A stretch of 64,000 bases of DNA from Peptostreptococcus equinus (GTDB lineage Bacteria; Bacillota; Clostridia; Peptostreptococcales; Peptostreptococcaceae), in contig NZ_CP114052.1 in assembly GCF_027125355.1 (NCBI RefSeq), positions 310,001 through 374,000 of the forward strand, in the 5' to 3' direction. A model generated the notes under the pieces. That model was not told the DNA's origin. It was given only the letters and a program-made list of their open reading frames with translations, and did no database searches. Made by a program: the position numbers and the translations under genes. The stretch's first letter is position 1, and each line of letters starts with the position of its first letter. Below, one piece after another: positions 3,968 through 29,278 of the stretch.

Positions 3968-4395
3968 TAAGTTCATAAAACAATATAGTGTTTGACTTAT
4001 TTTATGCTTATAATTAGCCGTAATTTTGACACAATATGAATATATGTTTAATTATTGGATATATATCTATTGCATTGAAAACTTTGGGAAATTAGTTTAA
4101 TAAAAAATAATTTAATTATTTTAAATAGAATAGTTTACTTTTTAAATAAAAACTGTTAAAATAATAAAAGTGAAATTGAGGCTAATATGAATCAAAAATA
4201 TGGCTATAGTAAATCTAAATAAAGGTTAATTTTGTGTTTGAATTATTAATTATTTTATTAAATATAATAAAGTATGAAAAGTAATAAATAGAAATAATAA
4301 GTATAAAATAATTATAATTCAAAAAATAAAAGTCTGAAGTTTATCTTATTAAAATCTATTAGCAGGCAAATAAAAAATGAAAAGGAGTAAAAGCA
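3968..4395 (+). promoter_or_regulatory. AT-rich leader of the pilus island with candidate promoter
   Basis: No gene is seen in this 428-base stretch. The best promoter candidate is TTGAAT at 4238-4243 and TATAAT at 4263-4268, with a somewhat long 19-base spacing. It would give a leader of about 120 bases before the backbone pilin. No riboswitch fold or clear inverted repeat was recognised. Confidence 0.3.
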
Positions 4396-7555: not shown

Positions 7556-8464
7556 TTGAATAATATAGATAAAGGCAGTCATTTAAAAGAACATGAGAAA
7601 AAAATAAATATAAAAAAAAATAATAATAAAGTTAAGAAAAAAAAATCTAAAGTAATCAACTATATAGTCAACTCAATGATTATCGTTGGGATTTTAGTAG
7701 TGTCATACCCTTTTCTAAGTCAAAGCTATTATTCTTATTTATCTAAACAAAATGTAGAAGATTTTAATGAGGAAACGAAAAAATTAACTTCAAAAGAAGT
7801 AGAAGAAAGAATGACTTTGGCAAAAGCATATAATGATTCTTTAACCAACAACACAGTTTTTGATCCATATACAAAAAAGAGATTAGATGAAGGAAGAAAG
7901 TCATATGCAAAGATGTTGGAAATAAATGAGAAGATTGGACATGTATCTATACCAAAAATAAAAGAGGATTTGCCTATTTATGCTGGTACTACAGAAAAAG
8001 TACTTCAAAAAGGTGTAGGGCATATGGAAAATACATCTCTTCCTATAGGAGGAAAGGGCACACATTCAGTATTGACAGCTCATACGGGATTGCCAAACAA
8101 CAGGTTATTCACTGATTTAATTAAATTAAAAATTGGAGATACTTTTTATATTACTAATATAAAAGGGACAATAGCCTATAAAGTTGATCAAATAAAAGTA
8201 GTATTACCTACACAGTTTGGAGATTTAGCTATTGATACCAACAAAGACTATGTTACTTTGTTGACATGTACTCCATATATGATAAATACACATAGATTAT
8301 TAGTTAGAGGACATAGAATCCCATATAATCAAGACAAAAAGAATAAAGAAGAAAGTAAATATAAATTTTCAGCTTTAATAAAAATAGGAATAGTGATACT
8401 AGTTTTATTGTTATTAGTGTATTTGCTTTTGAGAAGGAATAAAAAGAAAAAAAGTGTTAAGTAA
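7556..8464 (+). CDS. Class C pilus sortase (first of three)
   Basis: This is a 302-residue membrane transpeptidase that polymerises pilins. It has a cytoplasmic Lys/Asn-rich N-terminus (residues 1-35), a transmembrane helix (about 36-56), the class C lid motif DPY at 103-105, catalytic His H176 in TAHTG, Cys C238 in TLLTC, Arg R247, and a C-terminal transmembrane segment (about 275-293). The two membrane anchors and the lid are class C hallmarks. The start is TTG with AGAGGT upstream, 12 bases after the accessory pilin stop. Two runs of nine A (7612-7620 and 7637-7645) lie inside the cytoplasmic coding segment and could allow slippage. It is about half identical by eye to the next gene, suggesting tandem duplication. 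Confidence 0.9.
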   Translation: MNNIDKGSHLKEHEKKINIKKNNNKVKKKKSKVINYIVNSMIIVGILVVSYPFLSQSYYSYLSKQNVEDFNEETKKLTSKEVEERMTLAKAYNDSLTNNTVFDPYTKKRLDEGRKSYAKMLEINEKIGHVSIPKIKEDLPIYAGTTEKVLQKGVGHMENTSLPIGGKGTHSVLTAHTGLPNNRLFTDLIKLKIGDTFYITNIKGTIAYKVDQIKVVLPTQFGDLAIDTNKDYVTLLTCTPYMINTHRLLVRGHRIPYNQDKKNKEESKYKFSALIKIGIVILVLLLLVYLLLRRNKKKKSVK

Positions 8465-8476
8465 GGATATATTAAA

Positions 8477-9385
8477 ATGCAAAAAAATAATCTATTAGTA
8501 AAATTTGAAAAAATTTACATAAATAAATTTCTAAAATCTAATAATCGCTTTGTGAAAACTTTAAAAAAATATGGATGGATATTAATTATTGTTCTGGGTT
8601 TGTTAATTATGGTATATCCAATGGCTAGTCAAAAGTACTATCAAATCTTACAGACTCAAGAGGTAAATGATTTTGATCAAAGGGCAAAAAAATTGATAAA
8701 TAGTGATGCAGAAAAAAGAATTAAACTAGCGACAGCATACAATCAGACTTTAAAGCCAGAAAAGATCGGTGATCCATTTAGTGAAATACAGAAAAAAGGA
8801 ATAGCAGAATATGCGAGAATGTTGGAAGTTCATGAAAAGATAGGTCATATAAAAATACCTAAGATAAATCAAGATATAATCATAAAAGCAGGTACTAATG
8901 AAAAAGTTCTTCAACAGGGTGCTGGTCATTTTCAAGGAACAAGTCTACCAGTCGGAGGACCTAGTACGCATACTGTAATAACAGCTCATAGAGGTCTACC
9001 ATCAGCTAGATTATTCACTGATTTGAACAAGATGGAAATAGGAGACATATTTTATATTGTAAATATAAAAGAAAAACTCGCATATAAAGTAGATAAAATC
9101 ACTACAGTAGAGCCATCTGATTTTAGGCCTATTAAAATAGTAAAAGATAAAGATTATGCGACATTACTAACATGCACTCCATATATGATAAATACACATA
9201 GGTTATTGGTAAGAGGCCATAGAATACCCCTACCTGATGCAAAGCTAGTGAAAGAACAAGAGAAAAAAGGAATATTAGAAAAATATAAATCAATATTTAT
9301 TTTCTTGATAATATTGTCCTTATTAGCAATATTTTTTAGGAAAAATAGGAAAGTTATAGAACTAATAAGAATTATAAAAAAATAA
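8477..9385 (+). CDS. Class C pilus sortase (second of three)
   Basis: This is a 302-residue paralogue of the preceding sortase, starting 12 bases after its stop. It has a transmembrane helix at about 32-49, the lid motif DPF at 99-101, H171 in TAHRG, C233 in TLLTC, R242 in NTHRLLVRGHRI, and a C-terminal hydrophobic segment at about 272-288. The C-terminal catalytic halves of the pair are nearly superimposable (TLLTCTPYMINTHRLLVRG in both), while the N-termini differ. Paired class C sortases in pilus islands usually divide the work between backbone polymerisation and attachment of minor pilins. Which does which here cannot be read from sequence. Confidence 0.9.
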   Translation: MQKNNLLVKFEKIYINKFLKSNNRFVKTLKKYGWILIIVLGLLIMVYPMASQKYYQILQTQEVNDFDQRAKKLINSDAEKRIKLATAYNQTLKPEKIGDPFSEIQKKGIAEYARMLEVHEKIGHIKIPKINQDIIIKAGTNEKVLQQGAGHFQGTSLPVGGPSTHTVITAHRGLPSARLFTDLNKMEIGDIFYIVNIKEKLAYKVDKITTVEPSDFRPIKIVKDKDYATLLTCTPYMINTHRLLVRGHRIPLPDAKLVKEQEKKGILEKYKSIFIFLIILSLLAIFFRKNRKVIELIRIIKK

Positions 9386-9426
9386 AAAAAGTATTTACTG
9401 ACGTATATACTTGTAAGGGAAATAAA

Positions 9427-10299
9427 ATGAAAAAAAACACAATGAAAATTTTCGCATTGACGATATTTTTGCTTGGATTATTACTAGTTGCTTATCCGTT
9501 TATTAGTATGTCTATAGATGATTATGGTCAGGCTAATAAGAATGAAAAATTTAATAATTTAATTTCAAAAGATAAGAGTATTAGTAATAAATTATCAAAA
9601 CTTGAAAAATTGAACAAGAAAAATATCAAAGATGAAGATTTTCAATTGGAAAATGTATTTACAAGTAAAGATGTAGATAATAAACAATCTAAGTACTCAA
9701 AGCTCGGAATTAACACGAACGATAAAGTTGGATACGTATCAATACCAAAGCTTGGACAGTCTTTTGATCTATATTTAGATGCAAATTATGAAAAGATTGC
9801 AAGGGGTGTTGCAGTATTAAAGGAATCTGATCCACCAATTGGAGGGGCAGGTAAGAGAACTGTAATAGCAGGTCATGACGGATACTATAACAGGATATTT
9901 TTTATGCATATAAAAAAGCTGGATAGAGGTGACAAAATAATTATAAAATTCTTAAATAAAACATTAGTATACTCTGTATATGAAAAAGAAATAATTAATC
10001 CAACAGATTTTGACAAGATTAAAGCTATAGAAAATAAAGATGTTTTGACTCTACTTACATGTACGCAAAGACCATATTATAATAAAAGATTAATTGTAAG
10101 TGCAATTCGAGATGTTAAAAATGAAAATAGTCCTAAAACAACAGATAATGGTTTGTTCACATATTTAGGAAATGATAAGGTACCAATGAATATAAAGCTT
10201 AGAAAAATGGGACCATATTTGATAAGTTTGGTATTTTTTATATTGATTATAAAGATATTAATAAAAATGTATAAATTGATTGAGGATAGAGAAAAATAA
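9427..10299 (+). CDS. Third, divergent pilus-island sortase without the class C lid
   Basis: This 290-residue sortase has an N-terminal transmembrane helix (about 8-25), catalytic H150 in AGHDG, C212 in TLLTC, R221 in NKRLIVSAI, and a C-terminal transmembrane segment (about 262-282). It differs from its two neighbours: the DP(F/Y) lid motif is not found in the expected N-terminal region, the Cys is followed by TQRPYYNKR rather than TPYMINTHR, and the conserved RGHRI end is absent. It may attach the tip adhesin, whose sorting signal YPHTG also differs from the pilin signals, or it may anchor the fibre to the wall. That role is inferred from position directly before the adhesin gene. Confidence 0.85.
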   Translation: MKKNTMKIFALTIFLLGLLLVAYPFISMSIDDYGQANKNEKFNNLISKDKSISNKLSKLEKLNKKNIKDEDFQLENVFTSKDVDNKQSKYSKLGINTNDKVGYVSIPKLGQSFDLYLDANYEKIARGVAVLKESDPPIGGAGKRTVIAGHDGYYNRIFFMHIKKLDRGDKIIIKFLNKTLVYSVYEKEIINPTDFDKIKAIENKDVLTLLTCTQRPYYNKRLIVSAIRDVKNENSPKTTDNGLFTYLGNDKVPMNIKLRKMGPYLISLVFFILIIKILIKMYKLIEDREK

Positions 10300-10315
10300 A
10301 TGAGGAGGGATGAAG

Positions 10316-13300
10316 TTGAAAATATTAAGAAAAATTATAATAATAACCTTGATAATGCTTATGTCAATAGGAAATATACCGACAAAAATGTGGTCAGATA
10401 TTTACAATAAGGTACAGGCAGAGACAGTAAATTACGGTAAGCTAGTAGTAAATAAAGTGAATGAAAACCAAGATAGTTTGGCAGGTGCGACATTTACACT
10501 AGAAGGACAAAATGGTTCTACATACAAGCAAACGCTAGGTGACAGTGAACAACTATCTAAATTTGAGTTCGCTAATTTACAACCAGGAACTTATGTATTG
10601 AAAGAAACTAAATCTCCACAGGATTACAAGATTTCAAATAAGGAATGGATAGTAGTAGTAAGAAGCGATGGTGGAGTATTTGTAGGAGAAAAAAGTGATA
10701 ACATAACACCTATAGAAACAGGTGGAGTAAATGTTGGTTCTAAAATATCTTATACTGGTACTATGAAATATAATGATAGTCCTAGTGAAGGTGTTGTTGG
10801 TTCTATAGATGTTGGAACTGTAGAAAATGACATAAAAATAAATTTGAATTTTTCAACTAGCGAAAAAATCAACAGCGGTGACTATTTTGAATTAGAAGTT
10901 TCTGATACTTTGCACTATAATATGTTACAACCAGATAAATCAACATATCCAAATATTTATGGTTCGAATAATAAAATAATAGCTTATCCCACACTAGTTC
11001 AAGAAGATCCATCCAAAGGGACAGGTAAAGTAGTTAGATATACTTTTACTAGTAATGCAAGTACGTCTGACAAAATAAACTTTTCACTTAACTTAGGTCA
11101 TTCGGTAAATATGAATGTAGCTACACAAAATCAAAATTATAATTTTGAAGTAAAAGTTAGAGAAAGTTCGGATGCCGAAGTTGCTCAAACATGGGGAGTT
11201 AAATATGAGGATGTAAAAAGTTCAGGTAATCTAAATATAAAGGGTGCATTTTTATACACAAATGACCAATTAGGAAAGTATACACAATTATTTTATGTAA
11301 ATACGGATAAAAATGATCTAGGAACTAACCCAAAGTTAACTGTATTTCCAACAGATTTGACTAGAATAAGCACTTTTAACACGGCAGATATAAGTAGTGC
11401 TAAAACAAAGGTAAATATATATATGCTTAAGAGTACTGATAGTTTATCTGATGCACCAATACTAGATAAGAGCAAGTTAGAAGATGTAAGTAGTAGTTTT
11501 ACACCTACAATTACTGATGGCAAATTGGTAATAAATTTTCCTAATAATACAAAAGATACATATGTTGTTACTATTGATAGTGAAATGAAATATCCTGTGG
11601 ATTCAACTGTTAAGACTGCGCTTGTACAGACAGGAGTACTTTCAAACTCTACAAATAAAATAGGTGAGAATTCGGGAATATCTACTAATGTTAGTACATC
11701 TTCTTCAGATATAATAGTTAAACCTAATAACAATGAATTAGTACTTAAAGTTATTAATAGCCCTATAAATTACGGTTCTTTTACAATTTTTAAAAAGGGT
11801 GATAGTCAAGAAAAGCTAAGCGGTGCTAAATTTAACTTAAAATCTGTAAGCGGAGATTATAATAATAGTCTAGAGTCAGATTCTCAAGATGGCAAGATTG
11901 TATTTGATAAGTTACCTCAGGGATCTTATATATTGACTGAAGAAACTCCACCAAATAATTATGATAAGACTGATGAAACTTGGAAAGTTAATGTAGACGA
12001 AAACGGAAAAACTAATATTATCAAAGATAAAGTAGATGGAAAATCTACAATAGATGGAACAAATTTAACTGTTATAAACATTAAAAAAATAACTGCTAAT
12101 ATTGAATTGAAAAAAACAACTAATGATGGAACTAGTTTAGCAGGTGCTAAATTTAACCTTAAAAAGGAAGGTGACCCTAGTTTTAATGCAGATAAAACAT
12201 CAGAAAAAGATACAGGAAGAGTACTTTTTGACAACTTAAAACCAGGAGTATATGTACTTACAGAAACAGAGCCACCGAGTGGATATAAAGAGATTACATC
12301 TGAGACTAGATTTTATGTTAAGGATGATGGTAGTGTGGTTGAATTAAAAAAAACTGATAGTGGAAGTACGGTAGAGGAAGCTGTTGTTCAGCCAATCAAA
12401 ATAGTAAATGAATTGATACCTCCACCAGTAGTGGAGAAAGACAAAGGTCAATTTATTATAAATAAGACTTCTTTGGGTGAACTTATTTCGGGAGCTACAT
12501 TTGATTTATACGATGGAAAGTATACAGAGTTGACTGATCAATCAGCTCCTATTAATTTAGATGCAAAGGGCATCTATAGAGGGGAAATCAGTAAGGGAAA
12601 AATTGAGTTTAGAAATTTACCATCTGGCGTTTATACATTGAAAGAAACTAAGGCTCCAAATGGCTATATAGGTACGGATAGAACTTGGACTGTAAATGTA
12701 TATGAGAATGGTTATACTAAACTGACAGAAAATCCATTAAGTGTACAAAAAGATGATCCTAACCAGATAAATGGAGTTGATTTGTCAGATAAAATAACTA
12801 TATCAAATTATAAGTTTTCTTATTATCCAAGGGGTGGTAATCAAGAGAGTACTACAAATACAATATATCCTAATCAGAGTGGAAGACTTGGAATACAATT
12901 TTCTGGAACTGTAATTGATGGAGCTAATGTCAGCGAAGGCGATTATTTTGATGTCGTCTTGGATCCGAAGGTTGATAATAAAGGTATAGATCCATATACA
13001 GCACCAATAGTAATATATGGTGATAATAATCAACCGCTTGCTATAGGAGAGTTATTGGATAATACAAATACAATTAGATTCAAATTTACTAATTTTGTTT
13101 ATGGTTTAAATAAAATAAACTTTAATGTGAATTTCCCTTTATTCATAAATCGTAATTTAGTCAAAAATAATCAGTACATTAGTATAACAAATAAGTTGGC
13201 AAATACAAATTATAGTGAAAACATAAATATTGACTATGAAGGTTATGGATCTGCAAGAACATCAAATTTAGGTGGTTTGATTACAGAATATGATGAAACA

Positions 13301-13912
13301 AATGGTACGTTTACACAGTATTTATATGTAAACCCACTAAGATTAGGTGCATTCAATACACTTGTATCAATATACGATTATCACTATGAAAAAGAATACG
13401 GACTGGACAGTTCTGCGGATATAAAAAATATAGTGATTTTTGATACAAATGGAAAGAATCCTCCTGCAAGTTATGGAGTGGATACAAGCGAATATACAGA
13501 TGTGACTAAAAATTTTACGGTATCGGGTCCAATATCATATCAGTATGGGGGTACTAGGTATGATATTAACTTTGGGAGTTATGCCTACCAAAAAACATAT
13601 GTTGTGAAAATAACAGGTAATGTCGATAAAACAGGTAAAGATTTGCATTTGAAGGCTTTTATGGATTCAAGTGATTACTATTCTTATAGAGGAGTCTACT
13701 CTTTTGAAACGGGTGTTGAAGTTACTCCAGCAAACGGTACTGGTAATGGTGAAACACAAGAAATAATACCAGAAATAAATGTAGAAAATAAGAAATTGCC
13801 AGAATATCCGCACACTGGAGGAAATGGTACGTATTTATATACAATATTTGGTGCGTTGATACTTGCACTTGGTTTTTTCTCAAAAAGTTTTTACATAAAA
13901 ACATATAAATAA
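10316..13912 (+). CDS. Giant LPXTG-type pilus tip adhesin with CnaB/SpaA repeats and two predicted MSCRAMM-like modules
   Basis: This is an approximately 1,198-residue surface protein. An in-frame ATG at 10310 touches the GAGGAGGG ribosome binding site, so TTG at 10316 (seven-base spacing) is the likelier start; residue numbers here count from 10310. After a signal peptide (to about residue 38) come CnaB/SpaA-like domains at 42-137, 487-592, 596-702 and 712-830, each with a G(A)xFxL strand and an E-box such as YTLKETKAPNGY. Two larger modules at about 145-470 and 835-1140 share GDYF and TQ(L/Y)(F/L)YVN and contain a TYTFTDYVD-like stretch (RYTFTSNA; RFKFTNFVYG), as in N2-N3 adhesins of staphylococci. 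The sorting signal is YPHTG (1166-1170), followed by a membrane span. Last gene of the island; no strong terminator follows. Confidence 0.85.
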   Translation: MKILRKIIIITLIMLMSIGNIPTKMWSDIYNKVQAETVNYGKLVVNKVNENQDSLAGATFTLEGQNGSTYKQTLGDSEQLSKFEFANLQPGTYVLKETKSPQDYKISNKEWIVVVRSDGGVFVGEKSDNITPIETGGVNVGSKISYTGTMKYNDSPSEGVVGSIDVGTVENDIKINLNFSTSEKINSGDYFELEVSDTLHYNMLQPDKSTYPNIYGSNNKIIAYPTLVQEDPSKGTGKVVRYTFTSNASTSDKINFSLNLGHSVNMNVATQNQNYNFEVKVRESSDAEVAQTWGVKYEDVKSSGNLNIKGAFLYTNDQLGKYTQLFYVNTDKNDLGTNPKLTVFPTDLTRISTFNTADISSAKTKVNIYMLKSTDSLSDAPILDKSKLEDVSSSFTPTITDGKLVINFPNNTKDTYVVTIDSEMKYPVDSTVKTALVQTGVLSNSTNKIGENSGISTNVSTSSSDIIVKPNNNELVLKVINSPINYGSFTIFKKGDSQEKLSGAKFNLKSVSGDYNNSLESDSQDGKIVFDKLPQGSYILTEETPPNNYDKTDETWKVNVDENGKTNIIKDKVDGKSTIDGTNLTVINIKKITANIELKKTTNDGTSLAGAKFNLKKEGDPSFNADKTSEKDTGRVLFDNLKPGVYVLTETEPPSGYKEITSETRFYVKDDGSVVELKKTDSGSTVEEAVVQPIKIVNELIPPPVVEKDKGQFIINKTSLGELISGATFDLYDGKYTELTDQSAPINLDAKGIYRGEISKGKIEFRNLPSGVYTLKETKAPNGYIGTDRTWTVNVYENGYTKLTENPLSVQKDDPNQINGVDLSDKITISNYKFSYYPRGGNQESTTNTIYPNQSGRLGIQFSGTVIDGANVSEGDYFDVVLDPKVDNKGIDPYTAPIVIYGDNNQPLAIGELLDNTNTIRFKFTNFVYGLNKINFNVNFPLFINRNLVKNNQYISITNKLANTNYSENINIDYEGYGSARTSNLGGLITEYDETNGTFTQYLYVNPLRLGAFNTLVSIYDYHYEKEYGLDSSADIKNIVIFDTNGKNPPASYGVDTSEYTDVTKNFTVSGPISYQYGGTRYDINFGSYAYQKTYVVKITGNVDKTGKDLHLKAFMDSSDYYSYRGVYSFETGVEVTPANGTGNGETQEIIPEINVENKKLPEYPHTGGNGTYLYTIFGALILALGFFSKSFYIKTYK

Positions 13913-13988: not shown

Positions 13989-14017
13989 TTGACAATGATA
14001 AAAAAAACTAATATAAT
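13989..14017 (+). promoter_or_regulatory. Sigma-A promoter of the first arginine T-box
   Basis: Consensus TTGACA (13989-13994) and TATAAT (14012-14017) are separated by exactly 17 bases. Transcription should start near 14024. Confidence 0.85.
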
Positions 14018-14023
14018 AAAAAT

Positions 14024-14264
14024 CAACAAAATAAAGCCGATGATAAAGAGAGTAACATAAGTGGATTTTCAGCGAGTCGAAGTTTGGTGTGAGTTCGATA
14101 TTGAAGTTTATAGTGAAGAGAGCTTTTGAGGTTGCTATAGGAAATTATAGTATTATAGCAGGTCAGCCCGCCTTAAGGGTTTGAGAGGGTAGTATTTATT
14201 CTATCAATAAGAGTGGTAACGCGGAATTTTCGTCTCTTGGACTTTTGTCCAAGAGGCTTTTTTT
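14024..14264 (+). promoter_or_regulatory. T-box leader, predicted arginine specifier AGA
   Basis: The leader has the Stem I landmarks AGTAA (14051), CAGCGAG and GGTGTGAG (14086-14093). The specifier region GAAG-AGA-GC places an Arg AGA codon at 14119-14121. A CCCG/AAGGG stem follows, then the T-box AAGAGTGGTAACGCGG (14209-14224). The terminator hairpin pairs 14234-14242 with 14247-14255 and ends in a T7 run. The specifier reading is supported by the valS leader, where the same context gives GTA. Uncharged tRNA-Arg should favour the antiterminator. It controls the binding-protein gene at 14433 and probably argG-argH. Confidence 0.9.
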
Positions 14265-14325
14265 ATATCATGATTATTGCATTATTTTAATCCGGATGAG
14301 ATAGTGTTTAGAATTATACACCAAT

Positions 14326-14382
14326 AAGAGTGGTACCACGGAAATTTTCGTCTCTTAGGCTTACAGCCTAAGAGGCTTTTTT
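14326..14382 (+). promoter_or_regulatory. Second T-box antiterminator/terminator module, no second Stem I
   Basis: A further T-box motif, AAGAGTGGTACCACGG at 14326-14341, is followed by a terminator hairpin (14352-14360 with 14366-14374) and a T6 run. It lies 117 bases after the first T-box motif. Only about 60 bases separate the two units, too few for a complete Stem I. Confidence 0.8.
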
Positions 14383-14432
14383 GATTTAAGAAAATTCAAT
14401 TAAGAAGAAATTATATTAGTTAGGAGATAGAG

Positions 14433-15272
14433 ATGAAAAAAATATTAAAAAAACTTAGTAAAATAATGTGTCTAGCATTGGTATTATGCCTTTGTATACT
14501 GTCAGTTGGATGTGGATCAAAAGATAAAAATGAATCAGCTTTAAAAGCTATAAAAGACAAAAAAGTGTTGGTAGTGGGTACAGCTCCAGGATATCCACCT
14601 TTTGAATTTGCAACATCTAAGGATGGAAATAGTAAGGTAGTTGGAGCTGATATAGATCTCGCACAAAAATTGGCAGATAAAATAGGAGTAAAATTGGAAA
14701 TTAAATCAATGGAATTTGATGCCTTACTTCCAGCTTTACAAGCAGGAAAAATAGATATAGCGATAACAGCAATGACACCTACAGAGGAACGTAAAAAAGC
14801 AGTAGATTTTTCACAAGTATACTTTGATGGAACTAACTCAGTGATTATAAGTGATTCAAATAAGTCAAAATTAGCTAATGAAGATGATTTGAAAAATTTA
14901 AAAATTGGTGTTCAAAAAGGAAGTACACAAGAAATTTACGCTAAAAACAAATTAAAAGCAAAGACTGTAAAATCATTACCTGCAGTACCTGACTTAGTTA
15001 GTGATTTGAAAAATGGAAATATAGATGCTGTTGTAGTTAGTACAGTAGTTGGTCAAATTAATGTAAAACAATATCAAGGTGTAAAATTAGCTCAAGGTTT
15101 AGAACTTAAATCATATTCAGGTGGAGAACAAGCTGCAATGGCATTTAAGAAAGGAAATAATAAAGAACTAATTCAACAAGCAAATAATTTGATAAAAGAA
15201 TTAAAGGATAGTGGAGAATATCAAAAGATATTAGACAAAAATATAGAGATTGCAAGTCAAACAAGTAAGTAA
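14433..15272 (+). CDS. Amino-acid (probably arginine) ABC transporter substrate-binding lipoprotein
   Basis: This is a 279-residue periplasmic-binding-protein family 3 lipoprotein. The lipobox LSVGC gives a lipidated C27. The mature part has the family pattern VGTAPGYPPFEF, VGADIDLAQKLAD, PALQAGKIDIAITAMTPTEER and IGVQKGSTQE. It is a close paralogue of the binding protein at 26989. No permease or ATPase gene lies beside it, so it probably shares the transporter at 27854-29278. The arginine assignment is inferred from the AGA-specifier T-box and from argG-argH downstream. No terminator is seen in the 119 bases before argG, so co-transcription is likely. Confidence 0.85.
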   Translation: MKKILKKLSKIMCLALVLCLCILSVGCGSKDKNESALKAIKDKKVLVVGTAPGYPPFEFATSKDGNSKVVGADIDLAQKLADKIGVKLEIKSMEFDALLPALQAGKIDIAITAMTPTEERKKAVDFSQVYFDGTNSVIISDSNKSKLANEDDLKNLKIGVQKGSTQEIYAKNKLKAKTVKSLPAVPDLVSDLKNGNIDAVVVSTVVGQINVKQYQGVKLAQGLELKSYSGGEQAAMAFKKGNNKELIQQANNLIKELKDSGEYQKILDKNIEIASQTSK

Positions 15273-15391: not shown

Positions 15392-16600
15392 ATGACAAAA
15401 ATAGTATTAGCATATTCAGGTGGATTAGACACATCAGTAATCATACCTTGGTTAAAGGAAAACTATGAAGGTAGCGAAGTAATAGCTGTATGCGGAGATG
15501 TAGGACAGGGTGATGAATTAAATGCAGTATATGATAAGGCCTTAAAAAGTGGAGCAAGTAAATGTTATATAGCAGATTTAAAAGAGGAGTTTGTAGCTGA
15601 TTATGTATTTCCAGTTATAAAATCAGGTGCAAAATATGAAGGAAAGTACTTGCTTGGAACTTGTTGTGCTAGACCCTTAATAGCAAAAGCTTTAGTAGAG
15701 GTTGCAGAAAAAGAAGGAGCAGAGTATATATGCCACGGAGCAACTGGTAAGGGTAATGATCAGGTAAGATTTGAGCTGGGAGTAAAAGCTCTTAATCCAG
15801 ATATAAAAATCATTGCACCATGGAGAGTTTGGGACATAAAATCTCGTGAAGACGCTATAGACTATGCTAATGAACATGGAATTGAAGTACCTGTAACAAA
15901 GAAGCGCCCATATAGTATGGATAGAAATGTACTTCATTTGAGTCACGAAGGTGGGGACTTAGAAAATCCTGAAAATGAACCAATTTCTGACCTTTGCTTA
16001 ATTTGCAATAATCCAGAAGATGCACCAGATAAGCCAGAATATATAACTATAGATTATGTAAAAGGTAATCCTGTAGCAATAAATGGAAAAGAATTAAAGC
16101 CACTAGAATTGTTGGAAAAAGCTAATGAAATTGCAGCTAAACATGGAATAGGAATTTTAGATATGGTTGAAAATCGTCTAGTGGGAATGAAATCTAGGGG
16201 GGTATATGAGACTCCAGGGGGAACACTTTTATTTGAAGCACATAAAGCTCTAGAAAGTTTAACTTTAGACAGAAATACAGCTTCATATAAATCACAAGTA
16301 GCTATAAAATATTCAGAGCTTGTATATGATGGACTTTGGTTTACACCTCTAAAAAATGCTTTAGATGCCTTTGTAGATTCTACTCAAGAAACTTGTACAG
16401 GACAAGTAAAGATGAAATTATATAAAGGAAATTGCCACAGTGCAGGAATGACATCTCCATATTCATTATATAGTGAAGAAATAGCAACATTTGGAGAAGA
16501 TAATGTATATGATCAAGCAGATGCAGAAGGTTTTATAAATTTATTTGGTTTACCTCTAAAGGTAAATGCTATGATGAAAAAGAAAAATAATATGAAGTAA
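15392..16600 (+). CDS. argG: Argininosuccinate synthase
   Basis: The 402-residue enzyme joins citrulline and aspartate with ATP to make argininosuccinate. The N-terminal ATP-binding signature [10 protein letters not shown] (residues 7-16) and the length of about 400 residues are typical of the family. The segments [16 protein letters not shown] and [20 protein letters not shown] match conserved parts of the citrulline/aspartate site. AGGAGG lies eight bases before the ATG. It is followed after 71 bases by argH, and no other arginine biosynthesis gene is near, so the pair would recycle citrulline, for instance from arginine deiminase or uptake. Confidence 0.97.
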
Positions 16601-16671
16601 AACAAGTGATATTAAATAAGAATAAACATATTTATTGATATGAAAAATTATAGAGTCAAAAGGAGACATTT

Positions 16672-18045
16672 ATGAAAAAGCTTTGGGGTGGAAGATTTGA
16701 AAAGGATACAAGTAAGCTTATGGAAGATTTTCATTCTTCCATAAGCTTTGATAAAAAATTATATCATTATGACATAATGGGAAGTATAGCTCATGCTGAA
16801 ATGCTAGCTAAATGCAATATAATAGATCTTAAAGATTCTGAGGAAATTATAGAAGCTCTAAGAGAAATAGAAGATGATATAGAAAATGGACAAGTTGAAT
16901 TTTCAGTATCGCAAGAAGACATACATATGAATATAGAGAGCCTCTTAATAGATAAAATTGGAGATACAGGAAAAAAATTACATACAGCTAGAAGTAGAAA
17001 TGACCAAGTGGCATTGGATGTAAGACTTTATACTAGAGATGCAGTATTAGAATTAAAGGAACTGTTAAAAGACTGGCTAAAGGCTTTAATAAAACTTGCA
17101 GAGAACAATTTAGATACAATAATGCCTGGATATACGCACTTACAAAGGGCACAGCCAATAAGCCTAGCTCATACAGTAATGGCTCATGCAGAAATGGCAA
17201 AAAGAGATATTCAAAGGTTAGATGCATGGATGAATATTTATAATGTGATGCCTCTTGGATCTGGAGCCTTAGCTGGTACAACTTTTCCTATAGATAGAAA
17301 TTATACATGCCAAAAATTAGGATTTGATTCAGCTTGTATGAATTCAATAGATGGAGTAAGTGATAGAGATTATATAATAGATATATTGGCAAATGCAAGT
17401 ATAGGAATGATGCATTTAAGTAGATTTTGTGAAGAGTTGATATTATGGTCAAGTCAGGAATTTGATTTTATTGAAATAGATGACGAATTTGCCACAGGAA
17501 GTTCTATGATGCCACAAAAGAAAAATCCGGATGCAGCGGAATTGGTAAGAGGCAAGACTGGTAGAGTTTATGGTGATTTAATGAGCATACTTACCACTAT
17601 GAAAGGCCTTCCTTTATCTTACAATAAGGATATGCAAGAAGATAAAGAAGTTTTATTTGATGGTATTGAAACATGGGAAAAATGTTTGAGAATAATGACT
17701 CCAATGATTACTTCTATGAAAATAAAAAAATATAATATGCTTGAAGCAGCTAAGGGTGGATATACAAATGCAACAGATTTAGCTGATTATCTTGTAAAGA
17801 AAGGTATAAGTTTTAGAGATGCACATAAAATTACTGGAGAAATAGTATTTTATTGCATAAGCAAAAATATATCTTTAGACCAACTTAATATTTTTGAGTA
17901 CCAAGAGTTTTCTCAGAAAATTGAAGTTGATGTGTATGATTTTATAGATGTAAAAACTTGTGTATCAAATAGAAAGTCTATTGGAGGACCTGCAATAGAA
18001 CAGGTTAAAAATAATATTAGAAATTTGAAAAGTTTTTTGAAATAA
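16672..18045 (+). CDS. argH: Argininosuccinate lyase
   Basis: This 457-residue enzyme of the fumarase/aspartase superfamily splits argininosuccinate into arginine and fumarate. It starts with KLWGGRFEKDTSKLMEDFHS, carries TARSRNDQVALDVRLY and TPGYTHLQRAQP-like (MPGYTHLQRAQPISLAH) segments, and has the superfamily signature GSSMMPQKKNPD with the catalytic Ser loop. Length is normal. The start is supported by AAAAGGAG. It completes the T-box-controlled arginine unit. The next gene has its own strong promoter five bases after this stop. Confidence 0.97.
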   Translation: MKKLWGGRFEKDTSKLMEDFHSSISFDKKLYHYDIMGSIAHAEMLAKCNIIDLKDSEEIIEALREIEDDIENGQVEFSVSQEDIHMNIESLLIDKIGDTGKKLHTARSRNDQVALDVRLYTRDAVLELKELLKDWLKALIKLAENNLDTIMPGYTHLQRAQPISLAHTVMAHAEMAKRDIQRLDAWMNIYNVMPLGSGALAGTTFPIDRNYTCQKLGFDSACMNSIDGVSDRDYIIDILANASIGMMHLSRFCEELILWSSQEFDFIEIDDEFATGSSMMPQKKNPDAAELVRGKTGRVYGDLMSILTTMKGLPLSYNKDMQEDKEVLFDGIETWEKCLRIMTPMITSMKIKKYNMLEAAKGGYTNATDLADYLVKKGISFRDAHKITGEIVFYCISKNISLDQLNIFEYQEFSQKIEVDVYDFIDVKTCVSNRKSIGGPAIEQVKNNIRNLKSFLK

Positions 18046-26572: not shown

Positions 26573-26601
26573 TTGACAATCAAAATAAAAAGATTTATAA
26601 T
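26573..26601 (+). promoter_or_regulatory. Sigma-A promoter of the second arginine T-box
   Basis: TTGACA (26573-26578) and TATAAT (26596-26601) are spaced 17 bases. The arrangement is the same as in front of the first arginine T-box. Confidence 0.85.
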
Positions 26602-26607
26602 ATATAT

Positions 26608-26845
26608 CAATAAAATATAAATCTGAGACGAAGAGAGTAACTTAGATGAATTTACAGCGAGTAAGGGCGTTGGTGTGAGCCTTATATTGGATTCTATAGT
26701 GAAGAGAGCTTTTGAGATTGTCGTAAGAAATTTTAGTATTTCGACAGGTTTCCCGCCTTAAGGGTTTGAGTGGACATAATTTTTGTCAAAAAGAGTGGTA
26801 ACGCGGTATATTCGTCTCTTGGTTTTTAACCAAGGGGCTTTTTTT
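26608..26845 (+). promoter_or_regulatory. T-box leader, predicted arginine specifier AGA
   Basis: Stem I landmarks are AGAGAGTAAC, CAGCGAG and GGTGTGAG (26672-26679). GAAG-AGA-GC puts the AGA specifier at 26705-26707. The T-box AAGAGTGGTAACGCGG is at 26791-26806. The terminator pairs 26816-26824 with 26828-26836 and ends in T7. It is clearly homologous to the leader at 14024. It controls the ABC transporter genes that follow. Confidence 0.9.
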
Positions 26846-26863
26846 ATACAATGATGAAGATAG

Positions 26864-26925
26864 TGTCAAAAAGAGTGGTAACGCGGTATATTCGTCTCTT
26901 GGTTTTGACCAAGAGGCTATTTTTA
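26864..26925 (+). promoter_or_regulatory. Duplicated T-box antiterminator/terminator module
   Basis: A second T-box motif (26871-26886) and terminator (26896-26903 with 26908-26915, tail GCTATTTTTA) lie 80 bases after the first. The 43 bases 26784-26826 recur exactly at 26864-26906, so this is a recent tandem duplication. There is no room for a second Stem I. Confidence 0.85.
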
Positions 26926-26988: not shown

Positions 26989-27819
26989 ATGAAAAAAGGT
27001 CTTAAGAAATTATTAGCTTTAAGTTTAGTTGCTGTAATGGCAGTAGGTATGGTTGGTTGTTGGTCTGATAAATATGCAGATACAGATGCACTAGATCAGA
27101 TTAAAAAGAACGGTAAAATAATTGTTGGAACTTCACCAGATTATCCACCATTTGAATTTTTAGTGTCTGAAGGTGGTAAGAGCAAGGTAGTAGGTGCTGA
27201 TATAGATATGGCACAAAAGTTAGCTGATAAAATGGGGGTAAAATTAGAAGTTAAAACAATGGATTTTGATGCTTTAATACCAGCTTTGCAGGCTGGAAAA
27301 GTAGATGCAGTAATTACAGGTATGTCACCAAATGAACAACGTAAAAAATCAGTAGATTTTTCTGAAATATACTTTAAGGGAGAAAATGGTGTATTAGTTG
27401 CAGAAAAAAATGTTAATAAAATAAAATCAGAAGATGAATTAAAGAAGATGAAACTAGGTGTTCAAAAAGGTTCTACTCAGGAAACTTATTTAAAAGATAC
27501 ATTAAAGCTTAAAGATTATAAAGCTTTAACAGCTGTTCCAGACTTAGCTATGGATTTAAAAAGTGGTAAGTTAGATGCGATAGTTTTAAACAGCAAGGTT
27601 GCAAAGATAAATGAAGGTAAATATGAAGGCATAAAGGTTGCGAATGTTAAGCTTACTGGCGGTGGAGAAGAAGAAGCCATGGCAATAGCTGTTAAAAAAG
27701 GAAACAATGCTAAGTTAATAAAGATGCTTAATGATGGAATTAAGGAATTAAATAAGAGTGGCGAATATGATAAGATATTGGCTAATGCCGTTGAAATGGT
27801 AAGCAAAGAAAAGAAATAA
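26989..27819 (+). CDS. Amino-acid (probably arginine) ABC transporter substrate-binding lipoprotein
   Basis: This is a 276-residue family 3 solute-binding lipoprotein. The lipobox MVGC puts the lipidated Cys at C24. It shares with the 14433 protein the runs VGADID, QKLADK and VQKGSTQE and most of its length, and both keep the ER/QR-KK segment before the hinge. It is the first gene of a complete ABC operon (permease 34 bases after, then ATPase). Specificity for arginine is inferred from the AGA T-box specifier; other cationic amino acids remain possible. Confidence 0.92.
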   Translation: MKKGLKKLLALSLVAVMAVGMVGCWSDKYADTDALDQIKKNGKIIVGTSPDYPPFEFLVSEGGKSKVVGADIDMAQKLADKMGVKLEVKTMDFDALIPALQAGKVDAVITGMSPNEQRKKSVDFSEIYFKGENGVLVAEKNVNKIKSEDELKKMKLGVQKGSTQETYLKDTLKLKDYKALTAVPDLAMDLKSGKLDAIVLNSKVAKINEGKYEGIKVANVKLTGGGEEEAMAIAVKKGNNAKLIKMLNDGIKELNKSGEYDKILANAVEMVSKEKK

Positions 27820-27853
27820 TAGAAGTGATGTAGAGAAATAAGGAGATTAATTG

Positions 27854-28519
27854 ATGGATTTTATAACAGAGTACTATGGTTCTTATTTATCAGGAACTGG
27901 GATAACAATAGGAATATCGTTCATAGCCCTATTTGTAGGATTTTTTGTAGGTTTGATTGCATGTATAGCTAGAATCTCAAATTCTAAAATTTTGAGATTT
28001 ATATCAGGTGCATATATAGAAATAATTAGAGATACACCACTATTGGTACAGTTATCATTAATAGCATTCGGTTTACCGACTATTGGAATTAACTTTCCTA
28101 GTATATTTGGACTTAGTCCAGAGTTCTCAGCGGGAGCATTCGCCCTTACTCTTAACTCAGGTGCTTATATAGCAGAAATTATGCGTTCTGGTATACAGGC
28201 AGTTAATAAAGGGCAGATGGAGGCCAGTCGTTCACTTGGTTTAAATTATTGGCAGTCAATGAGACATGTTATAGTGCCTCAGGCTATAAAAAATATACTA
28301 CCAGCACTAGCAAATGAGTTTGTAACACTTGTAAAAGAATCATCAATTGTTTCTTTTGTGGGAATTACTGATTTGATGTTTATATCAAACTCAATAAAGA
28401 ACTCAACTTATAATGCCTTTGGACCTTATATATTTGCAGCTTTAATTTACTTTATAATAACATTTACACTTTCTAAGCTAGTTGGAGTATTAGAAAAGAA
28501 AATGTCTACAGATAGATAG
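27854..28519 (+). CDS. Polar amino-acid ABC transporter permease
   Basis: This is a 221-residue permease of the His/Glu/Gln/Arg/opine family with about five membrane helices. The EAA loop that contacts the ATPase is MEASRSLGLNYWQSMRHVIV, followed by PQAIKNILPALANEFVTLVK. The ATG at 27854, seven bases after AGGAGA, is preferred to the overlapping TTG at 27851. With only one permease gene the transporter is probably a homodimer in the membrane. Confidence 0.93.
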   Translation: MDFITEYYGSYLSGTGITIGISFIALFVGFFVGLIACIARISNSKILRFISGAYIEIIRDTPLLVQLSLIAFGLPTIGINFPSIFGLSPEFSAGAFALTLNSGAYIAEIMRSGIQAVNKGQMEASRSLGLNYWQSMRHVIVPQAIKNILPALANEFVTLVKESSIVSFVGITDLMFISNSIKNSTYNAFGPYIFAALIYFIITFTLSKLVGVLEKKMSTDR

Positions 28520-28528
28520 GAGAAGGAT

Positions 28529-29278
28529 ATGAACGTAATTAATGAAAAAGAAACATTATTGAAATTAGATAATCTTCAAAAAAGCTTTGGAGACTTACAA
28601 GTATTAAAAGGTATAGATTTGGATATTAAAAAGGGCGAAATATTAGTAATAATTGGTCCATCAGGATCAGGTAAAAGTACGGTTCTAAGATGTATGAATT
28701 TGTTAGAAGTTCCAACTGGTGGAGATGTAATATTTGAAGGACATTCAATAACCAATCTAAAAACAATTGATAAAAATAGAGAAAAAATAGGTATGGTATT
28801 CCAGAATTTTAACCTATTTCCAAACAAGACTATTTTAGAAAATATCACACTTGCACCTATAAAGGTGAAGGGATTAAGTAAGGAAATGGCAACTGCAAAG
28901 GCAGAACAGTTACTTACTAGAGTAGGTTTAATAGATAAGATAAATTCATACCCAGGTCAACTATCAGGTGGACAGCAACAACGTATAGCAATAGCTAGAG
29001 CATTGGCAATGGAACCAGATATGATGTTATTTGATGAACCAACTTCTGCGCTTGACCCAGAAATGGTAAAAGAAGTTTTGGACGTAATAAAAGAACTTGC
29101 TATTGAGGGAATGACAATGGCAATAGTAACTCATGAAATGGGATTTGCTAAAGAAGTAGCTGATAGAGTGATATTTGTTGATGGGGGAAAGATAATGGAA
29201 GAAGGTACTCCTGAAGAAGTATTTAATAACCCAACAAGTGATAGAGCGAAAGATTTCTTTAATAAAATATTAATATAA
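28529..29278 (+). CDS. Polar amino-acid ABC transporter ATP-binding protein
   Basis: This is a 249-residue ATPase of the GlnQ/ArtP type. It has Walker [11 protein letters not shown]-loop [10 protein letters not shown], signature [17 protein letters not shown], Walker [15 protein letters not shown] and the switch His in VTHEMGFA. It starts nine bases after the permease stop, with AGGAGAAGG as its site. The operon ends at a strong hairpin. It probably serves both arginine-T-box binding proteins in the window. Confidence 0.95.

Follow-up and report, generated by a model that had tools for sequence, protein, structure and literature searches.

Partially tandem arginine T-box leaders of Peptostreptococcaceae carry a second module that appears to borrow the Stem III strand of the first

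One promoter, one Stem I and two terminators ahead of arginine genes

The window analyzed here is a stretch of 64,000 nucleotides from the genome of Peptostreptococcus equinus (contig NZ_CP114052.1), and all coordinates below are positions within it unless stated otherwise. The leader under study (14024-14382) lies in front of a gene for the substrate-binding protein of an amino-acid ABC transporter, with argG and argH further downstream. Directly upstream of it is a pilus-like cluster (7556-13912) with three proteins that look by eye like class C sortases and a 1200-residue surface protein with SpaA domains and an LPXTG anchor. The parts of the leader and its genes are as follows.

13989-14017, forward strand: promoter TTGACA-17-TATAAT, matching the consensus at 12 of 12 positions
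14031-14240, forward strand: complete T-box leader (Stem I, Stem II, Stem III#1, antiterminator 1), RF00230 match of 130.8 bits
14119-14121, forward strand: specifier AGA (Arg), from the Rfam alignment, comparison with the valS leader and the genomic tRNA-Arg(UCU) with A73
14183-14187, forward strand: RRRxG purines GAGAG ahead of the shared strand (motif as given in the parts of PMC7583486 consulted)
14188-14201, forward strand: putative shared Stem III 5' strand (GGTAG), then its loop
14201-14205, forward strand: Stem III 3' strand #1 (CTATC)
14213-14224, forward strand: T-box 1, GTGGTAACGCGG
14232-14264, forward strand: terminator 1 and its U run
14265-14280, forward strand: spacer piece able to pair with 3' strand #1 and T-box 1, at z -0.36 no better than shuffled spacers
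14310-14322, forward strand: Stem III 3' strand #2, AGAATTATACACC, with a bulge and a small loop in its predicted pairing with the shared strand
14330-14341, forward strand: T-box 2, GTGGTACCACGG
14350-14382, forward strand: terminator 2 and its U run
14433-15272, forward strand: SBP_bac_3, amino-acid ABC transporter substrate-binding protein
15392-18045, forward strand: argG (15392-16600) and argH (16672-18045)

A previous sequence-only reading had described this leader as one promoter and one Stem I followed by two complete T-box/terminator modules, and had named a hidden Stem I between the modules as the finding that would speak against this. The Rfam scan returned a single full T-box (RF00230, 14031-14240, model positions 1-219, 130.8 bits against a cut-off of 93), and AGAGTGGTA is present twice, at 14210 and 14327. 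The terminators at 14232-14257 (11 pairs) and 14350-14376 (12 pairs) are the two longest among four sites found by a search that yields a mean of 0.5 sites on shuffled sequence. The first U run ends at 14264, and about 62 bases separate it from the second AGAGTGG. Scanned alone with the covariance model, the stretch from 14241 to 14440 gave a 5'-truncated match (model 88-219, 32.5 bits, E 5.7e-6, cut-off 93) that contains no part of a Stem I. The partial doubling at this locus is thus confirmed: one promoter and one complete arginine T-box are followed by a second module that lacks a Stem I. Hits to PyrR, trpB and the like in scans of module 2 stretches lay far below their Rfam cut-offs and were dismissed as chance.

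The arginine specificity proposed earlier was likewise borne out. Where the leader reads GAAG-AGA-GC, the valS leader of the window reads GAAG-GUA-GC, and the alternative specifier GAG (Glu), directly after GAA, was rejected because the valS leader places its GUA one base later. The genome further encodes a tRNA that ARAGORN calls Pyl(cta), with anticodon loop CTTCTAA, anticodon TCT and the end A-CCA, i.e., a tRNA-Arg(UCU) with A73. ARAGORN reads the anticodon one base too far at two places in this genome's own tRNA cluster (L192:945-1021 and 2572-2647), so that tRNA-Arg(UCU) is named tRNA-Pyl(cta) there.

Rfam finds 3 T-boxes in the window and 15 in the genome (1,995,029 bases in one contig), and a second T-box motif is present, with 1500-base flanks read, at only two of these 15 loci. 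One is the leader described above and the other is a second arginine leader of the window.

26573-26601, forward strand: promoter TTGACA-17-TATAAT, read from the sequence
26616-26822, forward strand: second Arg T-box leader, module 1, with specifier AGA at 26705-26707; RF00230 match of 114.2 bits (cut-off 93)
26773-26786, forward strand: putative shared Stem III 5' strand and loop
26855-26917, forward strand: module 2, with 3' strand #2 at 26855-26867, T-box 2 from 26875 and terminator 2 to 26917
26989-29278, forward strand: amino-acid ABC transporter (substrate-binding protein, permease, ATPase)

This leader (26616-26822) has the same architecture as the first, with T-box 2 located 80 bases past T-box 1, and its module 2 also comes without a Stem I, given that 26823-26990 matches only model positions 146-219 and stays below the Rfam cut-off. 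By covariance score and by the match of specifier and discriminator, both arginine leaders of the window qualify as transcriptional T-boxes with a predicted response to tRNA.

Partial tandems are common among the arginine leaders collected from the family

A DNA query with 14024-14390 against 71 genomes of the family Peptostreptococcaceae gave matches in 69 of them. The leader pool was composed of 30 loci and 80 further stretches among the family matches listed, together with 22 loci from a pattern scan of the order; for L042 and L043, two of the 30 loci, the leader lies beyond the stretch taken. Parsing for the T-box motif followed by CG[TC]C, a U run and the AGA specifier resulted in 70 double and 27 single distinct leaders. 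From the doubles we removed L052 (Pro), leaving 69, and from the singles L007 (a Met leader) and L117 (its second module had been parsed as the first), leaving 25, one of which (L143) has a degenerate second T-box.

There are thus at least 69 double arginine leaders from at least 46 of the 71 family genomes and at least 16 of 23 genera, with T-box to T-box distances of 80-259 bases (median 117). Both T-boxes contain UGGU in all 69, which fits A73 of tRNA-Arg(UCU). The genes 3' of these leaders include substrate-binding proteins, argG and argH according to BLAST as well as ArgC and an ornithine carbamoyltransferase recognized by eye.

Beyond the family, a pattern of two T-boxes 65-125 bases apart was found in 22/393 genomes across the order, 15 from this family and 7 from others (reversed control 2/393), and in 8 of 391 genomes of the class (reversed control 1/391). 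Twelve partial-tandem leaders from eight other families were collected, with L053 left out as an apparent coding sequence and six distant relatives from a contig scan not used. Judged by eye throughout, five of the twelve have a UGG (Trp) specifier, two precede PutP-like genes, three precede other sodium/solute symporter-like genes, one precedes argG and one is unassigned; Trp and Pro are thus among the specificities represented. L184/L190 (G509:C1, ca. 1083262-1083433, minus strand) has three T-box/terminator modules on one Stem I in front of a sodium/solute symporter-like gene, and the 3' strands of its modules 2 and 3 are both complementary to one Stem III 5' strand.

The partial tandem therefore recurs, and it is common among the arginine leaders collected from this family and rare elsewhere. 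The search of related genomes that the sequence-only reading had suggested turned up the same architecture in 69 arginine leaders of 46 genomes and in 12 leaders of eight other families. As judged by the pattern scans, repetition of only the 3' half is indeed unusual among bacteria in general, as the earlier reading had stated, but not in this family, in which the collected arginine leaders are 69 double versus 25 single.

The second module appears to use the Stem III 5' strand of the first

Across the 69 double leaders, module 2 seems to have retained Stem III only as its 3' half, with module 1 providing the 5' half. A local 5' strand of at least 4 bp flanked by RRRxG is present for module 1 in 69/69 leaders and for module 2 in 0/69; because the motif anchoring the shared strand itself contains AG[AT]G, the RRRxG count of 69/69 and the control on module 1 partly follow from the anchor. 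Independently of this anchor, like the 0/69 for module 2, an AA follows both 3' strand #1 and 3' strand #2 in 69/69. With the purines ignored, a local 5' partner of at least 5 bp exists somewhere in the spacer of 8/69 leaders.

The shared strand, anchored by a motif that is blind to 3' strand #2, pairs with this strand over at least 5 contiguous bp in 63/69 leaders, almost perfectly in L085 and L045. (An earlier anchor by the longest hairpin, with at least 5 bp in 59/70, was replaced because it misplaced the shared strand, e.g., in L014, L027, L030, L058 and L076.) On a scale with a maximum of 10, the mean contiguous pairing of the shared strand is 7.8 bp with 3' strand #2, 7.0 bp with 3' strand #1 and 0.94 bp at 4185 other spacer positions. 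When bulges are allowed, its pairing with 3' strand #2 averages 10.7 bp and -8.4 kcal/mol over the 69 leaders, compared to -2.3 kcal/mol for 3288 spacer windows and -3.3 kcal/mol for 3750 pairings with the strands of other leaders, and in 63/69 no spacer window beats the leader's own 3' strand #2 site. The duplex with #2 is more stable than that with #1 in 45/69 leaders and not more stable in 24/69, with both equal in 3.

Six leaders, including the queried one, have fewer than 5 contiguous bp with 3' strand #2 and use bulges, mismatches or small internal loops instead. The queried leader is a weak example in that its shared pairing is less perfect than in most others, though the shared strand reaches -5.9 kcal/mol with 3' strand #2 versus -2.9 kcal/mol with #1. 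A local Stem III replacing the shared one had been considered for this leader and for L033, but it was dropped since both pair with the shared strand once a bulge is allowed. The spacer of the queried leader also contains an 11-pair hairpin of its own (14279-14307, around ATCCGGAT) that, folded in isolation, takes part of 3' strand #2 as well, and CCGG pieces are also found in the spacers of some leaders of the same genus (L017, L018, L020 and L023).

A module 2 that completes its Stem III with the 5' half from module 1 would also depend on the decoder of module 1. This bears directly on the earlier suggestion that module 2, lacking a Stem I, might sense the acceptor ends of uncharged tRNAs in general and read no codon: module 2 has no Stem III 5' half of its own either, the borrowed half would tie it to the decoder, and an antiterminator without Stem III hardly binds tRNA according to the parts of PMC7583486 that we consulted. 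With the comparative evidence pointing to a borrowed strand, we consider sensing without a decoder extremely unlikely.

The fit of the two strands is also visible in how they evolved. Along a FastTree phylogeny of the Stem I-II region, same-branch changes that keep a pair over eight positions number 25 for #2 and 11 for #1, and at six control positions there are 19 for #2 compared to 0, 1, 1 and 3 for slid partners. The value of the leaders' own pairs was reached by 0/5000 permutations and, with 38 distinct shared strands, by 0/20000 permutations; ranked by fit to a given 3' strand #2, the 5' strand from the same leader comes first of the 38 in only 16 cases and among the top three in 26. At the sequence level, 3' strand #2 and the shared 5' strand of Stem III#1 thus covary. 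One could object that 3' strand #2 fits the shared strand merely as a duplicate of 3' strand #1 or as a copy kept in the same way, given that both stem from one module and that their last six bases are identical in 19/69 leaders. Yet these bases differ in the other 50, of which 44 keep at least 5 bp with the shared strand, and among the 17 leaders whose shared position 2 is G, the partner in strand #1 is mostly U (13, with C in 4) and the partner in strand #2 mostly C (13, with U in 4), giving G-U pairs with #1 but G-C pairs with #2 in most of them. Strand #2 moreover pairs beyond the stem into the loop of Stem III#1, with 58/69 at position 7 and 57/69 at position 8 (38.6 and 40.5 when shuffled), fading by position 12 (36 versus 30.4). 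Passive copying is already disfavored by these observations and, in our view, very unlikely.

The loop of Stem III#1 is a possible toehold for strand #2, and the design of the double leaders may include a Stem III short enough to be displaced. Many single arginine leaders (e.g., L125, L140 and L141) have a Stem III hairpin that is longer than in the doubles, with up to 11 bp.

Predicted refolding upon synthesis of the second 3' strand

We folded transcripts of growing length, a model that takes in the leader without tRNA, Stem I/II and kinetics. Stem III#1 is predicted in 69/69 leaders up to T-box 1 and in 68/69 through terminator 1. Once 3' strand #2 is included, Stem III#2 is predicted in 69/69 (0.97 and 1.0 for the two arginine leaders of the window) with #1 then near zero, and forcing #1 costs a mean of 5.4 kcal/mol (range 0.6 to 10.7). 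The predicted end state is one long arm with the shared strand and 3' strand #2 at its base and terminator 1 far out. Among single arginine leaders as a control, Stem III#1 is kept in 23/25, and the two failures may reflect misplaced anchors.

The 12 leaders from outside the family are predicted to fold alike with a probability of #2 of at least 0.89, including the step to module 3 in the triple leader, though L055 (a spacer window pairs better) and L054 (a local Stem III as well) are less clear. For L061 (G026:C253), which is the leader of leuS and whose second module is degenerate, the predicted value of #2 is only 0.01. Its second T-box motif comes without a good terminator or shared pairing and resembles a decaying partial copy.

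The stretch past terminator 1 tends to be antisense to the region from 3' strand #1 to AATAAGAGTGGTAACGCGG, with a mean z of -1.34 relative to shuffled spacers and values below -2 in 19/69 leaders. Own spacer pairs do better on average than those with other leaders, with a residual of -1.21 (0/5000 permutations), or -1.30 (0/5000) after thinning to 33 leaders; the negative residual is missing in 20/69, and the antisense tendency is unremarkable in the two arginine leaders of the window (z -0.36 for the queried one and +0.51 for the one at 26616).

A proposed mechanism: one decoder for two charge checks in series

We propose, with a probability of around 0.65, that, by strand exchange, the module already used becomes part of an extended Stem III, allowing a single Stem I to serve two successive checks of tRNA charging. 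One decoder (Stem I/II) would feed two 3' platforms, of which the first is complete and the second comprises only a Stem III 3' strand, the AA, an antiterminator and a terminator. After the polymerase has moved beyond terminator 1, this terminator would fold and the spacer of many leaders would pair with T-box 1. Strand #2 would then displace strand #1 on the sole Stem III 5' strand with its RRRxG purines. This would turn platform 2 into a complete discriminator and leave module 1 as the distal portion of the lengthened Stem III. Antiterminator 2 would thereby come to lie beside the Stem I already used and, probably, beside the tRNA bound there, so that the free CCA end of this tRNA would be tested a second time, and a charged tRNA at either check would stop transcription. 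Three elements of this scheme are inferences: an exchange taking place while the RNA is being transcribed, the hand-over of one tRNA, and the need to pass both checks.

The hand-over is the most far-reaching part of this proposal. Exchange on the one Stem III strand, with the loop as toehold, would pass the decoder between platforms two or three times and so re-test one bound tRNA. This would amount to kinetic proofreading of tRNA charging during a single round of transcription, in use for several amino acids and in several bacterial families; we see about even odds that this is how the leaders work. With the same strand exchange, the first tRNA might instead leave and a fresh one be bound for module 2, giving two independent samples of the tRNA pool in a manner closer to ordinary tandems. 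Refolding of module 1 could indeed eject the tRNA, and PMC12452182, in the parts consulted, reads complete tandem T-boxes as requiring two uncharged tRNAs. Two tRNAs cannot sit on one decoder, however, and the exchange presumably need not break the contacts of Stem I/II to the tRNA, which makes us regard sampling of a fresh tRNA as unlikely.

The second module could also be a back-up terminator, i.e., a copy that catches leakage past terminator 1 with no tRNA response needed and with its T-box and 3' strand as leftovers. Terminators 1 and 2 are both strong (mean -15.9 kcal/mol each), but a plain terminator needs neither the UGGU nor the AA seen in 69/69 leaders each nor a 3' strand that covaries with a strand more than 80 bases upstream, and terminator 2 would block expression without antitermination. 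We judge this explanation to be unlikely as well; like passive copying and sensing without a decoder, it fits the data less well than strand exchange. The tighter control and the successive tRNA binding that the sequence-only reading had offered as options are both compatible with the data.

Comparison with known systems

Partially tandem T-boxes are named in PMC7583486 with an unknown mode of action in the parts consulted, and the architecture at the queried locus most likely belongs to this class. We claim as new, within the literature searched, only the shared-strand mechanism. It was not found in that literature, though Vitreschak 2008 and Gutierrez-Preciado 2009 may describe partial duplications, and the consulted parts of PMC11477304, PMC7778990, PMC2494555 and PMC10907184 contain no such mechanism. 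The shared Stem III strand suggests how partial tandems work as a model that is testable base by base, and it would explain why the 3' part alone is repeated and how one decoder could control two terminators. If one tRNA is truly tested twice, these leaders would represent natural proofreading inside a riboswitch and show how several platforms can be designed onto a single aptamer.

With transcriptional T-box riboswitches (RF00230), the double leaders share a Stem I with specifier, Stem II, Stem III, antiterminator and terminator as well as downstream amino-acid genes, but they add a second discriminator and terminator without a Stem I or a Stem III 5' half of its own. The partially tandem T-boxes of PMC7583486 have the same repeated 3' part on one Stem I with not all parts doubled; the consulted parts offer no mechanism, whereas a shared Stem III strand is proposed here. 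PMC9413887, as far as consulted, discusses double T-boxes with a perhaps sharper response, and the tandem T-boxes in the parts seen of PMC12452182 are complete units. Like the leaders studied here, the latter place two terminators in series ahead of one operon with an expected switch-like response, yet each unit has its own Stem I in contrast to the one decoder for both modules here. Tandem riboswitches with several expression platforms (PMC9481103) similarly make serial termination decisions, but with one aptamer per platform, and a single aptamer with two platforms was not seen in the parts consulted. Finally, structural work summarized in the consulted parts of PMC7583486 describes RRRxG-Stem III-AA as an indispensable part of the charge-sensing discriminator; unlike that discriminator, module 2 has no RRRxG and Stem III 5' strand of its own (0/69) and would be completed by the strand upstream.
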